64,000 nucleotides of DNA from Bacteroidota bacterium (GTDB lineage: Bacteria; Bacteroidota; Bacteroidia; B-17B0; Aurantibacillaceae), in NCBI GenBank assembly GCA_003153315.1, contig PLYA01000054.1, forward strand, positions 1-64,000, read 5' to 3'. Under the pieces are notes generated by a model that worked only from the letters and a program-made list of their open reading frames with translations, had not been told where the DNA came from and searched no databases. This document shows, piece after piece, positions 25,696-35,140 of this stretch. Each line of letters opens with the position of its first letter. Within the stretch, counting starts at the first letter, position 1. The position numbers were made by a program, and so were the translations under genes.

Positions 25696-28035
25696 TTATT
25701 GGATAATAATCTTCTTAATAGTTTTGTTGTTATTGTTATCGGTAATGTTTGCGTAATAAATACCTTTTGCAAGGTGCGATAAATCGCAGCTTAATATGGC
25801 ATTTGAAACATTATTTTCGGCTTTAGTGTAAACAACTTGTCCGAGCATATTTACAACAGTAAAGTTTAGGTTAGTTGGTTCTGTTAAAGTAATGGCAAAG
25901 CTAAACTGACCATTGTTAGGATTAGGAAATAAATTAATAGAATTAGCTAAATGATTGTTTTGAGGTATTCCTATACCTAAGCCCGGGCCACAGCCAATTG
26001 GGAAAAGGAAGTTATCGATACTTGCTGAATAAACAGTACTATAAGCATTCCATGAGTTATCACTCCATTGTTCGAAGCCTGCATTGGCAATTCCGTTTGT
26101 ACCATCATTAGTTGCTACTGCAATGGTATCTCCACTTGCACCAGAAGGTATATTGAAGCCCACATAGAAAGTAGTTGGAGGAGCTGTTGTGAATGTATAT
26201 GGAGTTGAGAGTGTAACGATATTATAGCCATTTGTTAAGCTGCTTAAAGAAACTGTTTGAGAAGCTACTACAGTACCCGGAGCACCAGAATTGTCATTCC
26301 AAACATTAAAAGTTACTGCAGCAGTACCTTTTACATATAAATAAGCTTGTATTTTTTTAATTTGATAGTTGGCAGAAGTTACCGTATATTTTTCTGCTTT
26401 TGCCAAATCTCCATAAGCATTTGTACCAAATGCATAACCCGAGTCATGAGGAGCTACATTATCTGCATAATAAATATGGGGGGTGGCTAAATCTGCTGTG
26501 GTAACATTTCTCATTGTATCACAGGTATTGGCACAAACCGTAACTGTTACTACATGAGATATTGAGTTGCTACCTGCAGAGTTAGAAACCGCATCAGTTA
26601 CTGTATAGGTACCTGCTGCTGTAAAAGTAATAGTTGGATTTGCAACTGTATTGGTAGTAATGGTTACTCCAGTATTTGGGCTAACGCTCCAGTTCCATGA
26701 TGTTGGAGGGCCGGAAGAAGCATCGGTAAAGGCTGCTCCTGCATTTGTGCAAATACTTGTTGGAGGCGTAAAAGCGGCTACAGGTGTGCTTACGGTTATG
26801 TTGCATAAGTTTGCAGCAGAAGCTGTTAAACCACTTCTCCAAGGAGATAAAGACAAAGCTGAATGAAAGCGATTAACCTGATCGGTAGTAAACATATACA
26901 TGGCACAATCATCACTATAATCCATAAAATTCATAAACATTTCTCCATCGGGTCCATTTCCAGTAGGAGGAGTACCAGCACAACTATTAGGCATATACGG
27001 ATATGTTGTTGGACATGAAACATAATTAGCAGCGGTTGCAGGTGGTGTATCATTGCAATAATCGGTAGCACAGTTACCATCACCCCAAATGTGACGAAGA
27101 CCAAGCCAGTGACCTGATTCATGTGTTAGTGTACGTCCCAGATTATAGGGTGCAGCGGCTGTGCCTGTATTTCCTAAAGCATTATAAGCCATCCAAACAC
27201 CATCGGTAGTTGAAACACTACCTACAGTTTCGCCCCAAGAAGGAGTTATTGCAGAACTGGCTGATGCAGGAGGAAAGGTAGCATATCCTAATAAACCCGA
27301 TGTACCACCATCACTTACCCATACGTTAAAGTACTTGGTAGGGTCCCAAATAGTGGCCGGTTTAATCGTATTATCCATTAGAGTTTGCACGCTAGAAGAA
27401 GCCGGATTTGTAGCACCTGAAATACTCTCCCAGGTAACACGGTCAATACCAGGTTCGGCTATAGTAGTCCCGCTTGGGTTTTTTGTAGCCAAGCAAAAGG
27501 TAATACCTGAACTGCCTATTACCACTCCATTATTATCGGGTGCAGGTAAGCCGGCTGCTACAGCATAATCATAAAACGCAGGATGGCCACTTAAAGTACA
27601 GCTTGCATAATTACTTGAGTTAACACCTGTACCATTATAATCTGCATTTAATATACCTATTTGTGAATTTACCTGTGCCTGAGAAACATTATGGCTGCCA
27701 CTAGCTCCTTCTACTTCACCTGTTGAATAAATAATATGGAATACAACAGGAATGGTATAGGTGGTAGATGTGGTTCTGCCGGTAGCTACATTCTGTTTGT
27801 GTGTTTCAACCATTTGGTTAAAGGCTTCGTCCCATGCTTTGCCCGGAACTTTAGTGCCACAACCACGAGTGGGTAATTGCCCTGCTTTTAAATTAGGTTC
27901 AGAAAGATCTCTTGTTGTTGCAGATGTATTTGCTTTAGAAATACCTCTATGTTTTAGCTTTCCTGAAGAATTTTGAGCCATTAAACCTGCACTAAGCAAA
28001 GCAACAGCCGATGTTATAAATAGTGTTTTTTTCAT
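25696..28035 (-). CDS. secreted M43-type metalloprotease with PKD domain and T9SS sorting domain
   Basis: The 779-residue product starts at the ATG at 28035, giving the signal peptide MKKTLFITSAVALLSAGLMA; the frame extends 10 codons upstream without a better start. The catalytic domain has HESGHWLGLRH at 305-315, the zinc site of pappalysin/cytophagalysin-type M43 proteases, and a Met-turn region MNFMDYSDDCAMYMF. A PKD-like domain follows near 420-500 (AGTYTVTDAVSNSAG), then a beta-sandwich. The last 80 residues (NLFPNPNNGQFSF ... KGIYYANI) form a type A sorting domain. It is therefore exported and released or anchored by type IX secretion. Confidence 0.93.
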   Translation of the reverse strand: MKKTLFITSAVALLSAGLMAQNSSGKLKHRGISKANTSATTRDLSEPNLKAGQLPTRGCGTKVPGKAWDEAFNQMVETHKQNVATGRTTSTTYTIPVVFHIIYSTGEVEGASGSHNVSQAQVNSQIGILNADYNGTGVNSSNYASCTLSGHPAFYDYAVAAGLPAPDNNGVVIGSSGITFCLATKNPSGTTIAEPGIDRVTWESISGATNPASSSVQTLMDNTIKPATIWDPTKYFNVWVSDGGTSGLLGYATFPPASASSAITPSWGETVGSVSTTDGVWMAYNALGNTGTAAAPYNLGRTLTHESGHWLGLRHIWGDGNCATDYCNDTPPATAANYVSCPTTYPYMPNSCAGTPPTGNGPDGEMFMNFMDYSDDCAMYMFTTDQVNRFHSALSLSPWRSGLTASAANLCNITVSTPVAAFTPPTSICTNAGAAFTDASSGPPTSWNWSVSPNTGVTITTNTVANPTITFTAAGTYTVTDAVSNSAGSNSISHVVTVTVCANTCDTMRNVTTADLATPHIYYADNVAPHDSGYAFGTNAYGDLAKAEKYTVTSANYQIKKIQAYLYVKGTAAVTFNVWNDNSGAPGTVVASQTVSLSSLTNGYNIVTLSTPYTFTTAPPTTFYVGFNIPSGASGDTIAVATNDGTNGIANAGFEQWSDNSWNAYSTVYSASIDNFLFPIGCGPGLGIGIPQNNHLANSINLFPNPNNGQFSFAITLTEPTNLNFTVVNMLGQVVYTKAENNVSNAILSCDLSHLAKGIYYANITDNNNNKTIKKIIIQ

Positions 28036-28104
28036 GATGGTTATTTTAGTGACACAATTATACAAAAAATAATAAATTAATCAAAGTAATAATTTCATTA
28101 CTAT

Positions 28105-30256: not shown

Positions 30257-33200
30257 ATGTGTTTTATAAAGAAATATTTTCTTATAGTTGCTCTTTTGCT
30301 TCCTGCGTTCTATTATGGACAGTTCTATTATGGTTTGCAGCAAGAATTTGGTAAAAGCAGGGTGCAGTACCAACCTTTTTATTGGACTTATTATGACTAT
30401 GATAATTACCAGGTTTATTTTTATGAAGGATGCCGGGATATTGCCAAATATGTCTCTTATCGAGCCGAGTTTCATTTAAAGGATTTACAAAAGAAATTAG
30501 ACTACCAAAACAGTACCAAGTTGCAAATACTTACCTATAGCAATCAGGGAGATTTTAGACAAACTAATTTAGGACTAACAACTGATATTACAGCCAATAC
30601 AGGTGGTACCACAAAAATTGTAGGTACTAAATTAAGTGTATACTTCAATGGGAATTTGGCCGCTCTTGACAGGCAGATCAGGGCAGGTATTGCCGAGGCA
30701 CTTATTAATGAAATGTTATTTGGAGGGCGTACCAGAAATGTTTTAATAAACTCGACGTTTTTAAATTTACCCGATTGGTACACAAAAGGATTGATAGCTT
30801 ATCTTTCTGAAGGATGGAACACGGGTATTGATAATATTGTAACGGATGGCATAACCTTTGATAGGTATTTTAGCCTGAATAGATTAAGTGATAAAGATGC
30901 CGTTATTATAGGGCAGGCAATGTGGCAGCATGTTGCCGATGCATACGGAGAATCGAGTATTGCGAATATTTTATATATGACCAAAGTTTCGCGCAATGTA
31001 GATAATGCATTTATGTTTGTGGTAGGCAACGATACAAAAGGTTTATTGTACGAATGGATTGACGCTACTGCCAGAAATAACTCGAAGAAGGATACTTCAC
31101 AAACTTTTCCTAAACAAGACCCTATTGTTTTAAAACCAAAAGCCAGGCGGGACTATTACCAGTTAAAAATCAGTCCAGATGGAAAGCAGGTTATATACGC
31201 TCGCAATGAAATGAGTCAGCATCGTATTTATTTACAAGATTTAACAACCGGAAAAAAAACACGCATAGCTAAATGGGGTCCAAAAATAGATAGGATTAAT
31301 GATCTTACTTATCCTTTATTAGCATGGCATCCAAATGGCCAGGCCTTTGCCGCTATACATGAAAAGAAAGGGGTGATTTATTTATCTGTATATAATATCG
31401 GAGATAAAGACAAGGTTGACAAACCTATTACCGGTATAGAAAAAGTAAAGTCTTTTGCTTATAGTCCGGACGGAAAAAAGATTGTGATGAGTGCCGTAAA
31501 AAAAGCAAAAGGACAAAGTGATATTTTTATTTATCAGATAAACGCAGGCGGACTGGAACAAATAACCAATGATATCTGGGATGATGAAACACCATGTTTT
31601 ATAAACAAAGGGCATCAAATTGCTTTTGCATCTAACCGTACACATGATACTATTAAAGAAAGTGATAATGGTAAGTTTGAATTTGAGCAATCAAGATTTC
31701 ATAATATGTTTTTATATGATTGTAAAACAAAGTCTAAAATACTTTATCGGGTAACAGATACTAAAAACATTCAGGAAAGCGAACCAACCGATTTTTATGA
31801 CGGGTACTTTACTTACTTAAGTGATCAAAATGGAATTAAAAATCGCTTTGTGGCAAAGTTGGATAGTGTGATATCCTTTGTAGATACTACCGAACATTAT
31901 AAATATGTTTTCAACGCACACCCAATCTCGAATTACAAAACAAGTATATTAGAACAAGATGTAAACATAAAAGCCAATAAAGTAGCTGAAGTGTTTTATG
32001 TAAACGGACTTGAATACATGTATATTAATCCGATTAATAAAAGTGATGTAAATAAAAATTACAGTTTAAAAAACACTTATTATAGGCGTGCTCAACTTTA
32101 CGCAGCTAAAGCCAAAACACCTTCTGGAATAAACTCTTCTTCAGGCAACCAACCGGAAACTACTACTACAACACAGCAGAATAATTCTGGAGCGGTTGAT
32201 ATTAACAACTATTCTTTTAAGGATAATAATGCGACAGGTAACAACTCGACTGATACTCCTAAATCACAAACAGGTACTATTACGGCCAATTCAAATATAG
32301 GCACAACCTCTAATCAAAAAAGCCAAGGTTTTCAACTTCCTATACAAAAAAATTACTATGTGAATTTTGCTATAGATCAGGTAATAGCGCAAGTGGATAA
32401 TTCTTTTTTAAACCAAACCTATCAAAAATTTACAGGCTATTATGTGAACCCAGGACTTAACGGATTCTTAAAAGTTGCTACCAGTGATTTATTTGAGGAT
32501 TACCGTATAACTGCAGGTATGCGTATGGGATTTAATTTGAATAATGAATATTTTGTGAGTGTAGAGAACAGAAAAAAATTATGGGATAAACAACTCGTGC
32601 TTCATAGACTTTCATTACCATCAATAAGTGATAACGGATATAGCATTAAGATTCTTACACATGATGTGCAGTACAAGTTAAAATACCCAATTAATGAGGT
32701 TTCAAGTGTTAAAGGAACTTTCAGTTATCGAAATGATAAGACTATTTATAGTGCACAGGATGACCCATCCTTAAGACAAGCAAATGCTTTTGATAACTGG
32801 GTAGGTTTTAAAACAGAGTATGTGTTTGATAATACCCGACCTAAGGGATTGAATTTATATAATGGCTGGCGGTTAAAAGTATTTGCAGAATATTATGAAG
32901 GAATAAATATTCATAAACTCGAAAATCGTCAAAACATGGTTAATGCCGGATTTGATGTGAGGCATTATTTAAAAGTACATCGAGATTTAATTTGGGCAAA
33001 CCGTATAGCTGGGGCTTCATCTTGGGGTACAGATAGGATTTGCTATTATTTAGGTGGTGTAGATAATCAAATAGCTCCTAAATTTAATGGTGATGAACAA
33101 ATTAAACACCCCGATACGTATGGCTTTCAAGCTATAGCTACCAATATGCGTGGCTTTACACAAAATGCCCGCAACGGAAATAATTTTGTAGTTTATAACT

Positions 33201-33538
33201 CTGAACTGCGCTTCCCAATTTTTAAATACTTTTCAAATCATCCCATTCGTTCAGCTATTATAAATAATTTTCAAATCATTCCATTTTTTGATTTAGGCAT
33301 GTGTTGGTATGGAGCTAATCCCTTTAGTAAAGAAAATACAACCAACCAATTTTCTTTTTACCAAAACCCAATAACAGTTATAATCAACGAACCTAAACAA
33401 GCTATAATTGCCGGATATGGTTTTGGTCTTCGCACACAGATATTTGGGTATTTCATTAGGGTAGATTTCTCTTGGGGAATTGATAACCAAGTGCATAAAA
33501 AGGAAGTGACTTATTTCTCTCTTACTACTGATTTTTAA
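30257..33538 (+). CDS. degenerate peptidase + TolB-like propeller + outer-membrane barrel protein
   Basis: The 1093-residue secreted protein has three parts. Residues 1-21 are a signal peptide. About 22-290 resembles a gluzincin peptidase (LPDWYTKGLIAYLSEGW), but the expected HExxH is absent (AEALINEML instead), so it is probably inactive. About 300-560 carries PD40/WD40-like propeller repeats (KISPDGKQVIYARN, FAYSPDGKKIVMSA, IAFASNRTHDTI). After a Thr/Asn/Gln-rich linker near 630-690, the last 400 residues look like an Omp85/surface-antigen-type barrel (YNSELRFPIF, FGLRTQIFGYFIRVDFSWGI). I infer an outer-membrane protein with a periplasmic propeller. The stop overlaps the start of the next gene (TAATG). 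Confidence 0.82.
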   Translation: MCFIKKYFLIVALLLPAFYYGQFYYGLQQEFGKSRVQYQPFYWTYYDYDNYQVYFYEGCRDIAKYVSYRAEFHLKDLQKKLDYQNSTKLQILTYSNQGDFRQTNLGLTTDITANTGGTTKIVGTKLSVYFNGNLAALDRQIRAGIAEALINEMLFGGRTRNVLINSTFLNLPDWYTKGLIAYLSEGWNTGIDNIVTDGITFDRYFSLNRLSDKDAVIIGQAMWQHVADAYGESSIANILYMTKVSRNVDNAFMFVVGNDTKGLLYEWIDATARNNSKKDTSQTFPKQDPIVLKPKARRDYYQLKISPDGKQVIYARNEMSQHRIYLQDLTTGKKTRIAKWGPKIDRINDLTYPLLAWHPNGQAFAAIHEKKGVIYLSVYNIGDKDKVDKPITGIEKVKSFAYSPDGKKIVMSAVKKAKGQSDIFIYQINAGGLEQITNDIWDDETPCFINKGHQIAFASNRTHDTIKESDNGKFEFEQSRFHNMFLYDCKTKSKILYRVTDTKNIQESEPTDFYDGYFTYLSDQNGIKNRFVAKLDSVISFVDTTEHYKYVFNAHPISNYKTSILEQDVNIKANKVAEVFYVNGLEYMYINPINKSDVNKNYSLKNTYYRRAQLYAAKAKTPSGINSSSGNQPETTTTTQQNNSGAVDINNYSFKDNNATGNNSTDTPKSQTGTITANSNIGTTSNQKSQGFQLPIQKNYYVNFAIDQVIAQVDNSFLNQTYQKFTGYYVNPGLNGFLKVATSDLFEDYRITAGMRMGFNLNNEYFVSVENRKKLWDKQLVLHRLSLPSISDNGYSIKILTHDVQYKLKYPINEVSSVKGTFSYRNDKTIYSAQDDPSLRQANAFDNWVGFKTEYVFDNTRPKGLNLYNGWRLKVFAEYYEGINIHKLENRQNMVNAGFDVRHYLKVHRDLIWANRIAGASSWGTDRICYYLGGVDNQIAPKFNGDEQIKHPDTYGFQAIATNMRGFTQNARNGNNFVVYNSELRFPIFKYFSNHPIRSAIINNFQIIPFFDLGMCWYGANPFSKENTTNQFSFYQNPITVIINEPKQAIIAGYGFGLRTQIFGYFIRVDFSWGIDNQVHKKEVTYFSLTTDF

Positions 33539-33927
33539 TGAACGATATAACTAAAAAATTAACTATGAATGAAATTGCAATTTTACTGCTGGTTGGACTG
33601 GCTGCAGGTTTTTTAAGTGGAATGGTTGGCGTTGGCGGTGGCATTATTGTAGTACCAGCTTTAGTTTATTTTTTAGGTTTTTCACAACATTCTGCACAGG
33701 GCACTACACTTTTTATGTTTTTATTTCCTATAGGTATTTTAGCCGTATTGAATTATCATAAAGCCGGTTATGTAGATTGGAAGGCTGCTTTATTTATTTG
33801 TACCACGTTTGTCGCGGGAAGTTATTTTGGCTCCAGGTTAGCAGTAACAATAGACCAACAAACTGTAAAAAAAATATTTGGTTCCCTGATTATCATTATG
33901 GGAATTAAGATGCTATTAGGAAAATAA
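33538..33927 (+). CDS. half-size TauE/SafE-family permease
   Basis: The 129-residue membrane protein has four hydrophobic segments and one copy of the family motif GFLSGMVGVGGGIIVVPAL. Full TauE/SafE proteins contain two such repeats in about 250 residues, so this half-unit must dimerise to form a transporter, if it is functional. The substrate of the family is usually a sulfur oxyanion or organic acid; nothing nearby settles this. The ATG overlaps the preceding stop; an internal ATG at residue 10 is an alternative start. Confidence 0.87.
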   Translation: MNDITKKLTMNEIAILLLVGLAAGFLSGMVGVGGGIIVVPALVYFLGFSQHSAQGTTLFMFLFPIGILAVLNYHKAGYVDWKAALFICTTFVAGSYFGSRLAVTIDQQTVKKIFGSLIIIMGIKMLLGK

Positions 33928-33934
33928 TTTTGCG

Positions 33935-35140
33935 ATGATAGATTTAACTGAACTCATCAAGCAAAAAGCAAAACAACATTTTTCTTATTTGGTAGATGTC
34001 AGAAGGCATTTACACGCACATCCTGAATTGTCTTTCAAGGAGATAGAAACTTCTCGATACATCAGTACCCAACTTATTAAACATCGAATCGAGCATCAAG
34101 CAGGTATTGTAAACACAGGTATTGTGGCACTTATCAAAGGAAAAAATCCCGATAAAAGGTGTGTTTTGTTGCGTGGGGATATGGATGCTTTACCCATTAT
34201 CGAAAAGAATGAAGTGCCTTACAAATCTGTTCATGAAGGGGTGATGCATGCTTGTGGACATGATATACATAGCACCTGTGTATTAGGCGCTGCCATTATT
34301 TTAAATGAGTTGAAGGATAGTTTTGAAGGAACCATAAAAATAATTTTTCAACCTGGGGAAGAAGTGTTACCCGGTGGTGCATCATTAATGATTGAAGAAG
34401 GTATTTTACAAAACCCTAAAGTAGATGTGGCTGTTGCGCTTCATGTATTTACAGATCTAAATGCCGGACAAGCTGGTTTTAGAAGCGGTATGTATATGGC
34501 AAGTACAGACGAGATTTATATAGATATAATTGGCAAAGGCGGTCATGCTGCCATGCCTTCAGAATACAACAATCCTATTTTAATTGCTTCCGAGGTATTA
34601 CAGGCATTAAGTAAAGAGTTTCCAAATCAGTCCGCTCTTTCATTGGATAAAAATAACGTGCCAACTGTTCTTGCCTTCGGGAAGGTAACGGCTAATGGTG
34701 CTACCAATGTAATTCCTGAAAAGGTTTCTATTGAAGGTACCTTCCGAACTATGGATGAAAACTGGCGTAAACAAGCACATGAAAGAATAACAAAATTAAC
34801 CACTGACATTGCAACTTCAAAAAAGGCAAAGGCTGAGGTAAAAATAATAAGAGGTTATCCTTTTTTGGTAAATGATGCCCAGGTTACAACCCAAGCAAAA
34901 AACACCGCTATACATTATTTAGGAAAAGAGAATGTTGTAGAACTTCCCCTGCGTATGACGGCAGAAGATTTTGCCTTTATTTCTCAGCAAGTACCCTCTT
35001 GCTTTTTCAGACTTGGTACAGGTAATAAACAACAAGGTATCACATCAGGTGTACATACGGCTACTTTTAATATTGATGAAAACTCTATTGAAACAGGTAC
35101 TACCCTTTTAGCTGCTATGGCTATTGATTTATTGAAATAA
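33935..35140 (+). CDS. M20D amidohydrolase (hippurate/IAA-amino-acid hydrolase-like)
   Basis: The 401-residue dinuclear-metal amidohydrolase has RRHLHAHPELSFKE at 23-36, LRGDMDALPI, and the metal-site HACGHDIHST. IIFQPGEEVLPGGASLMIEEG carries the catalytic Glu, a lid domain contains GKGGHAAMPSEYNNP, and the last His lies in VHTATFNID. It should split N-acyl amino acids in the cytosol; the acyl group cannot be predicted. The gene begins 7 bases after the TauE-like gene and converges with trmH. Confidence 0.93.
   Translation: MIDLTELIKQKAKQHFSYLVDVRRHLHAHPELSFKEIETSRYISTQLIKHRIEHQAGIVNTGIVALIKGKNPDKRCVLLRGDMDALPIIEKNEVPYKSVHEGVMHACGHDIHSTCVLGAAIILNELKDSFEGTIKIIFQPGEEVLPGGASLMIEEGILQNPKVDVAVALHVFTDLNAGQAGFRSGMYMASTDEIYIDIIGKGGHAAMPSEYNNPILIASEVLQALSKEFPNQSALSLDKNNVPTVLAFGKVTANGATNVIPEKVSIEGTFRTMDENWRKQAHERITKLTTDIATSKKAKAEVKIIRGYPFLVNDAQVTTQAKNTAIHYLGKENVVELPLRMTAEDFAFISQQVPSCFFRLGTGNKQQGITSGVHTATFNIDENSIETGTTLLAAMAIDLLK

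Follow-up and report, generated by a model that had tools for sequence, protein, structure and literature searches.

Inspection of the window (the whole stretch of 64,000 nucleotides that we analysed) revealed a gene for a protein of 1093 aa in which a gluzincin-fold domain that has lost its peptidase site is followed by a beta-propeller and an Omp85 barrel (positions 30257-33538, + strand; identified by open reading frame, Pfam and AlphaFold2). Relatives of this protein outside the class of the window's genome carry an intact site, members inside the class form a dead clade, and the dN/dS values of the dead domain point to constraint. Taken together, these observations indicate that a pseudopeptidase has been retained on an Omp85 barrel throughout the class.

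Architecture of the fusion protein

The anatomy of the protein, as predicted from homology and structural models, is strongly supported. The sequence-only reading of this DNA had proposed that three regions are fused in a single chain, and the open reading frame, the Pfam matches and the predicted folds all agree with this. The full-chain AlphaFold2 model, built from an alignment of 50 sequences, displayed a mean pLDDT of 82.9. A putative signal peptide was read from the sequence at residues 1-21 (30257-30319, +), and since no cysteine occurs at the likely cleavage site, we do not regard the fusion protein as a lipoprotein.

The N-terminal domain (residues 30-275; 30344-31081, +) was assigned to the gluzincin fold, without the catalytic residues, based on AF2, VIA-align and a sub-threshold match to PF13485. 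Residues 20-292 scored 17.2 bits against Peptidase_MA_2, below the cut-off of 32.4 bits, while 17 of the 43 members of the alignment matched this profile at 0.1 or better (best 7.7e-7). Among the five intact-site relatives that were scanned, four exceeded the cut-off for Peptidase_MA_2 and two exceeded that for Omp85. Folded alone by AF2, the domain reached a pLDDT of 77.8. Its best structural match was the collagenase of Grimontia (Z 14.0, rmsd 3.5, 228 residues), and matches to lugdulysin (Z 12.7) and to M1 aminopeptidases (Z up to 12.6) were also obtained, so structure prediction bears out the gluzincin-like fold that had been suggested for this region. The absence of HExxH was likewise confirmed. 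In the segment that corresponds to the former HExxH helix (residues 143-147; 30683-30697, +), A-G-I-A-E replaces H-E-L-V-H, and the former third ligand, the Glu of NEG, is Lys at residue 177 (30785-30787, +). The His, Glu and His of the HExxH of intact relatives align to A143, G144 and E147, and the distal Glu aligns to K177. Judged from this alignment, the catalytic residues of the domain are lost in the window protein.

The propeller occupies residues 295-592 (31139-32032, +) and was recognised both by Pfam (PD40, 1.6e-7) and by its structural match to TolB (residues 284-573 of the model; Z 22.7, rmsd 2.6, 238 residues). Meanwhile, the fusion protein scored 58.7 bits against the TolB equivalog TIGR02800, far under the cut-off of 343 bits. 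The C-terminal region (residues 700-1093; 32354-33535, +) is a predicted BamA-like Omp85 barrel. On their own, residues 690-1093 matched Pfam Omp85 (PF01103) with 28.5 bits against a cut-off of 24, and when the AlphaFold2 model was compared with solved structures, residues 706-1093 matched the BamA of Deinococcus (Z 26.6, rmsd 3.6, 317 residues aligned) and the BamA of Flavobacterium johnsoniae (Z 24.0). Thus, the C-terminal region does model as a barrel of the BamA type, and the proposal that a TolB-like propeller sits covalently on an outer-membrane barrel finds support in the profile and structure matches of both parts. The alignment of 50 sequences also placed an RGF motif at residues 965-967 (33149-33157, +), in which R965 and G966 were invariant; we take this RGF or RG(F/Y) to be the loop-6 signature of Omp85 proteins.

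Between propeller and barrel, at the position that POTRA domains would occupy, lies a low-complexity linker that is predicted to be disordered (residues 623-689; 32123-32323, +), with pLDDT below 50 at residues 623-648 and 650-689 of the whole-chain AlphaFold2 model. No POTRA domain was detected in the Pfam scans of the window protein and of the scanned intact-site relatives, and no patatin domain was matched in the Pfam scan of the fusion protein. A match to CdiA_C at residues 402-438 (0.022, below cut-off) was dismissed as a chance overlap with the propeller, and matches of the barrel and N-terminal domain profiles to MHC and chlorophyll proteins were also attributed to chance.

Distribution of the fusion in the phylum

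The three-part fusion is an old and common family of the phylum and is not peculiar to the genome of the window. Matches were found in 180 of the 198 genomes of the class, some of them short and covering the propeller only, and a profile search across the phylum retrieved matches in 231 of 247 genomes, short propeller-only matches included; among the phylum matches listed, most span most of the profile. Class families such as f54 and f22 displayed only weak matches or none, hence assembly cannot depend on the fusion in every member of the class. A collection of plasmids yielded one weak match, from Salinibacter ruber. The sequence-only reading had regarded the three parts as usually found in separate proteins. 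This view has to be given up, as the same domain order recurs across the phylum and fusions of propeller and Omp85 barrel were published in 2014 (PMC4104836).

The window's own genome holds a second copy on another contig (C36, locus L068), 79% identical and cut by the contig end. This copy matched a congener (G002) with 88% identity over 4,409 bases, flanking sequence included, and the contamination listed for the assembly is 6.21%. The match to the congener, which extends into the neighbouring sequence, speaks against a paralogue, and together with the listed contamination it suggests that C36 is most likely a contaminating contig of this congener.

Probable loss of the peptidase site near the base of the class

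The state of the site was scored in 218 near-complete rows, after dropping sequences of 700 residues or fewer, those spanning 600 or fewer model positions, and those starting late in the model. HExxH and the distal Glu were intact in all 28 phylum sequences from outside the class (27 genomes of 20 families), as well as in a further 78 of 78 outside-class sequences, titled mostly Ignavibacteria, Ignavibacteriales, Melioribacter or unplaced Bacteroidetes. Inside the class, the site was missing in 106 of 112 sequences (these 106 representing 105 genomes of 38 families), the 112 being best-match loci plus hand-picked regions and not a random sample. One intact-site sequence of the outside set bears the label 'Bacteroidia bacterium HBSIN02' (L147). 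It shares 57% identity with L110, the row that heads query A4, and is absent from the tree, which renders its class label doubtful, though not disproved.

The six class sequences with an intact site (L248-L253; families f41, f63 and f31) represent a separate and distant paralogue. Five of them clustered in the tree with a distant intact paralogue that is found outside the class too, while the sixth (L250) was omitted from the tree for being too similar to an included row and belongs to f41, as do three of the other five. The class holds at least six sequences of this intact paralogue. The four f41 genomes that carry it yielded no dead-site form, and a search of the window's own genome with the paralogue as query retrieved no intact copy.

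Phylogenies provided insights into the history of these states. In a FastTree phylogeny of 101 rows with the site columns masked, a single branch with support of 100 divided 59 dead from 42 intact sequences, amounting to one change. An IQ-TREE phylogeny under LG+C20, rooted on the intact paralogue and restricted to 53 of the 101 rows (six long-branch rows were removed and the remainder was thinned), recovered the dead clade with support of 100 and its intact sister group with 96. Because the two trees agree and one of them is rooted on the intact paralogue, the intact state is likelier to be ancestral and the loss to be a single event. Judged from these sequences, the peptidase site appears to have been lost once, near the base of the window's class. 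The search for homologues that retain HExxH, put forward by the sequence-only reading, had a divided outcome: such orthologues do exist, but all of them lie outside the class in our sample, indicating that the loss affected the class of the window while the site stayed intact elsewhere. We consider this evolutionary pattern, intact outside the class and a dead clade inside it, to be strongly supported.

Constraint on the dead domain

Strong constraint continues to act on the dead domain. Compared with three congeneric orthologues and the C36 copy, its dN/dS was 0.04-0.09, against 0.03-0.06 for the propeller and 0.035-0.07 for the barrel in the same pairs, values that are to be read with care, since dS is about 1 or higher and thus close to saturation; for two pairs at greater distance no value was obtained. 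The linker was the fastest-evolving part, with dN/dS of 0.15-0.22 where computable. The alignment of 35 live and 59 dead rows was also inspected for positions that reach 80% conservation or more among intact sequences and are still kept in the dead clade. The N-terminal domain keeps 40 of 103 such positions, the propeller 31 of 69 and the barrel 44 of 92, indicating that the N-terminal domain has relaxed only somewhat more than the other parts. What the dead clade keeps in this domain are mainly structural glycines and aromatics, whereas the catalytic centre was lost, as were positions including E181, Y216 and R217 in the P0001 numbering of the intact form. W223 is present in 54% of live rows and in 100% of dead rows. 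The length of the domain is steady at 268-277 residues in 67 of 68 aligned sequences, the window protein included, and is 289 residues in the remaining one.

Gene neighbourhood

The fusion gene is followed by genes for a half-size TauE/SafE membrane protein of 129 aa (33538-33927, +; Pfam; an alternative ATG nine codons in is possible) and for an M20 family amidohydrolase of 401 aa (33935-35140, +; Pfam and equivalog scan). The TAA of the fusion gene and the ATG of TauE overlap by one base, and a gap of 7 bases precedes M20. Both genes had been named from the sequence, and the description of TauE as half-size was accurate, since it matches only positions 126-237 of the 237 of the profile. A TauE of similar length, 130 aa, occurs in another locus (L059), so the half size is conserved and does not reflect a broken gene. 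Such a protein may work as a dimer.

The coupling of these two genes to the fusion, which had also been claimed, stands within the class only. Among 39 class loci, which were picked for spread and are not a random sample, TauE lies downstream in 19, M20 in 21 and both in 16, whereas neither was found downstream in any of 20 loci outside the class. Thus, this recurrent operon is not a general part of the fusion system and appears to be younger than the fusion. A functional link of TauE and M20 to the fusion protein is putative at most.

On the other side of the fusion gene, 18 of 59 loci carry a divergent gene with a THCHVDH motif, presumably a hydrolase of the metallo-beta-lactamase fold, and the window has an MFS transporter gene at this place. 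No envelope-assembly partner was found in the genomic context of the loci compared. Nearby, the window encodes a secreted metzincin-like protein (25696-28065, - strand) with THESGHWLGLRH in its translation and a type IX secretion sorting domain (TIGR04183). Taken with the named relatives of the fusion, this sorting domain assigns the window to Bacteroidota and presumably to Bacteroidia.

A proposed role in outer-membrane assembly

Omp85 barrels are conventionally read as devices for protein insertion or translocation at the outer membrane, and in BamA and TamA it is the POTRA domains that handle clients. We propose, with a probability of about 0.5, that the fusion is an outer-membrane assembly factor of the WD40-Omp85 type, in which protease and propeller stand in place of POTRA domains, and whose peptidase was inactivated once in the class and kept without proteolysis. 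Its mechanism is a guess that we rate at about even odds. The C-terminal barrel would reside in the outer membrane, where it would help substrate proteins to insert or to pass through, while the gluzincin domain and the TolB-like propeller would hang in the periplasm, replacing POTRA and holding substrates or partner proteins. The ancestral fusion was probably an active Zn-peptidase that would cut clients that failed to assemble, and it might be seen as a one-chain counterpart of three proteins of E. coli, namely the peptidase BepA, the propeller protein BamB and the barrel protein BamA. The peptidase would then have been inactivated once, in the ancestor of the class, and the domain retained for binding or scaffolding. 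In this proposal we infer the activity of the intact form, the periplasmic side, the handling of clients, the assembly role and any link to the BAM complex. A broader version, in which the fusion is a phylum-wide one-chain machine of outer-membrane quality control whose protease arm turned client-binding at the root of the class, in one event, and was kept in dozens of families, is a tentative idea that we find doubtful.

The behaviour of BepA offers some orientation. This periplasmic Zn-metallopeptidase of E. coli is described as either promoting LptD assembly or degrading LptD, probably while at the BAM complex; both activities are said to involve an edge strand adjacent to the active site (PMC8423444). 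In Bacteroidota, outer-membrane biogenesis was only recently seen to differ from that of E. coli, and the sections drawn on here of the paper on the BAM complex of F. johnsoniae do not mention a protein such as ours (PMC12611786). This silence counts against the proposal, as do the absence of a recognised POTRA domain, the class families with weak matches or none, and a genomic context in which no envelope-assembly partner was found.

An alternative is that the N-terminal part is a passenger placed on the cell surface, in the way that PlpD is described as placing its lipolytic domain there (PMC4104836). The passenger-like N-terminal part, the long disordered linker at residues 623-689 and the Omp85 barrel would all suit such an arrangement, but about 560 residues, which make up two folded domains, would need to pass the outer membrane in an unfolded state, and the propeller resembles the periplasmic TolB; we regard this reading as possible though unlikely. 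The TolB-like propeller could also act as an envelope tether, replacing TolB and joining Pal or a peptidoglycan partner to the barrel where canonical TolB is missing. TolB_N was matched in none of 60 class genomes, that of the window included, in which the fusion gene itself is the best match to the TolB propeller. However, the TolB_N model is short and was matched in a control Bacteroides genome, the 58.7 bits of the propeller do not come near the cut-off of 343 bits, a nearly complete Tol-Pal set has been described in Bacteroidetes (PMC8871954), and no recurrent Tol or Pal-like neighbour was recognised in the loci, which were judged by eye. A tether of this kind thus seems quite improbable to us. 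Across the phylum, TolB_N was found in 7 of 138 genomes: four of family f73 (frames of 446-476 residues), one of f72 (a frame of 326 residues) and two of f85 (three matches in frames of 1037-1093 residues). Family f73 displayed only weak matches to the fusion protein in the phylum profile search, and a complementary distribution of TolB (f73; L264 and L265) and the fusion protein is possible.

The remaining alternatives concern the fate of the domain itself. Its strong constraint, and the rise of W223 to 100%, would be in line with an enzyme whose site was remodelled, for example into a metal-independent one, yet 63 of the 103 positions that live forms conserve have been given up, and the four former site positions vary widely across the dead clade, unlike a new catalytic centre at those places. 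We deem a remodelled enzyme very improbable. Ordinary decay, which would make the peptidase part a relic without a role, could account for the loss of catalytic and second-shell residues, but it is hard to reconcile with the steady length of the domain and with a dN/dS close to that of the barrel; this reading was already disfavoured and we give it almost no credence.

The fusion is a widespread Omp85 protein in which a peptidase-fold domain and a propeller occupy the position of POTRA, and our literature searches found no experimental study of any member of the family. The intact site outside one class and the dead site inside it offer a clean natural comparison, through which experiments can ask what a peptidase does at the outer membrane and what stays useful without it.

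Comparison with known systems

The closest described relatives are the WD40-Omp85 proteins, a subfamily of propeller-barrel fusions described by Heinz and Lithgow in 2014, who drew a comparison between the propeller and TolB and saw in the protein a resemblance to a fusion of BamA and BamB (PMC4104836). The window protein is assigned to this subfamily by that description, sharing a TolB-like propeller N-terminal to an Omp85 barrel and the lack of POTRA. It differs in that it carries a dead peptidase domain, whereas the subfamily was described there without a peptidase domain, active or dead; the word 'peptidase' is absent from the main text of that paper, and a literature search on the subfamily name found nothing beyond it. 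With BamA and TamA the window protein shares the barrel fold, the Omp85 domain and the RGF motif, but it has a propeller and a pseudopeptidase and no POTRA. Its propeller has the fold of TolB; in contrast to TolB, it lacks TolB_N, is attached covalently to a barrel and falls under the TIGR02800 cut-off.

For the N-terminal domain, the fold is that of the bacterial collagenases (M9), lugdulysin (M30) and the M1 aminopeptidases, although HExxH and the distal Glu of these enzymes are absent from the window protein. PlpD, a patatin-like Omp85 protein, is similar in having an enzyme-type N-terminal domain on an Omp85 barrel, but that domain is lipolytic, while the window protein has a pseudopeptidase plus a propeller. 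BepA (M48) may be a functional analogue, as a metallopeptidase fold at the site of outer-membrane assembly with a role partly beside proteolysis; BepA is separate and active, whereas the window protein is one chain with a dead site. Thus, the propeller-barrel subfamily is already known, if little studied, and what is unexpected is a class-wide pseudopeptidase derived from a form with an intact site.
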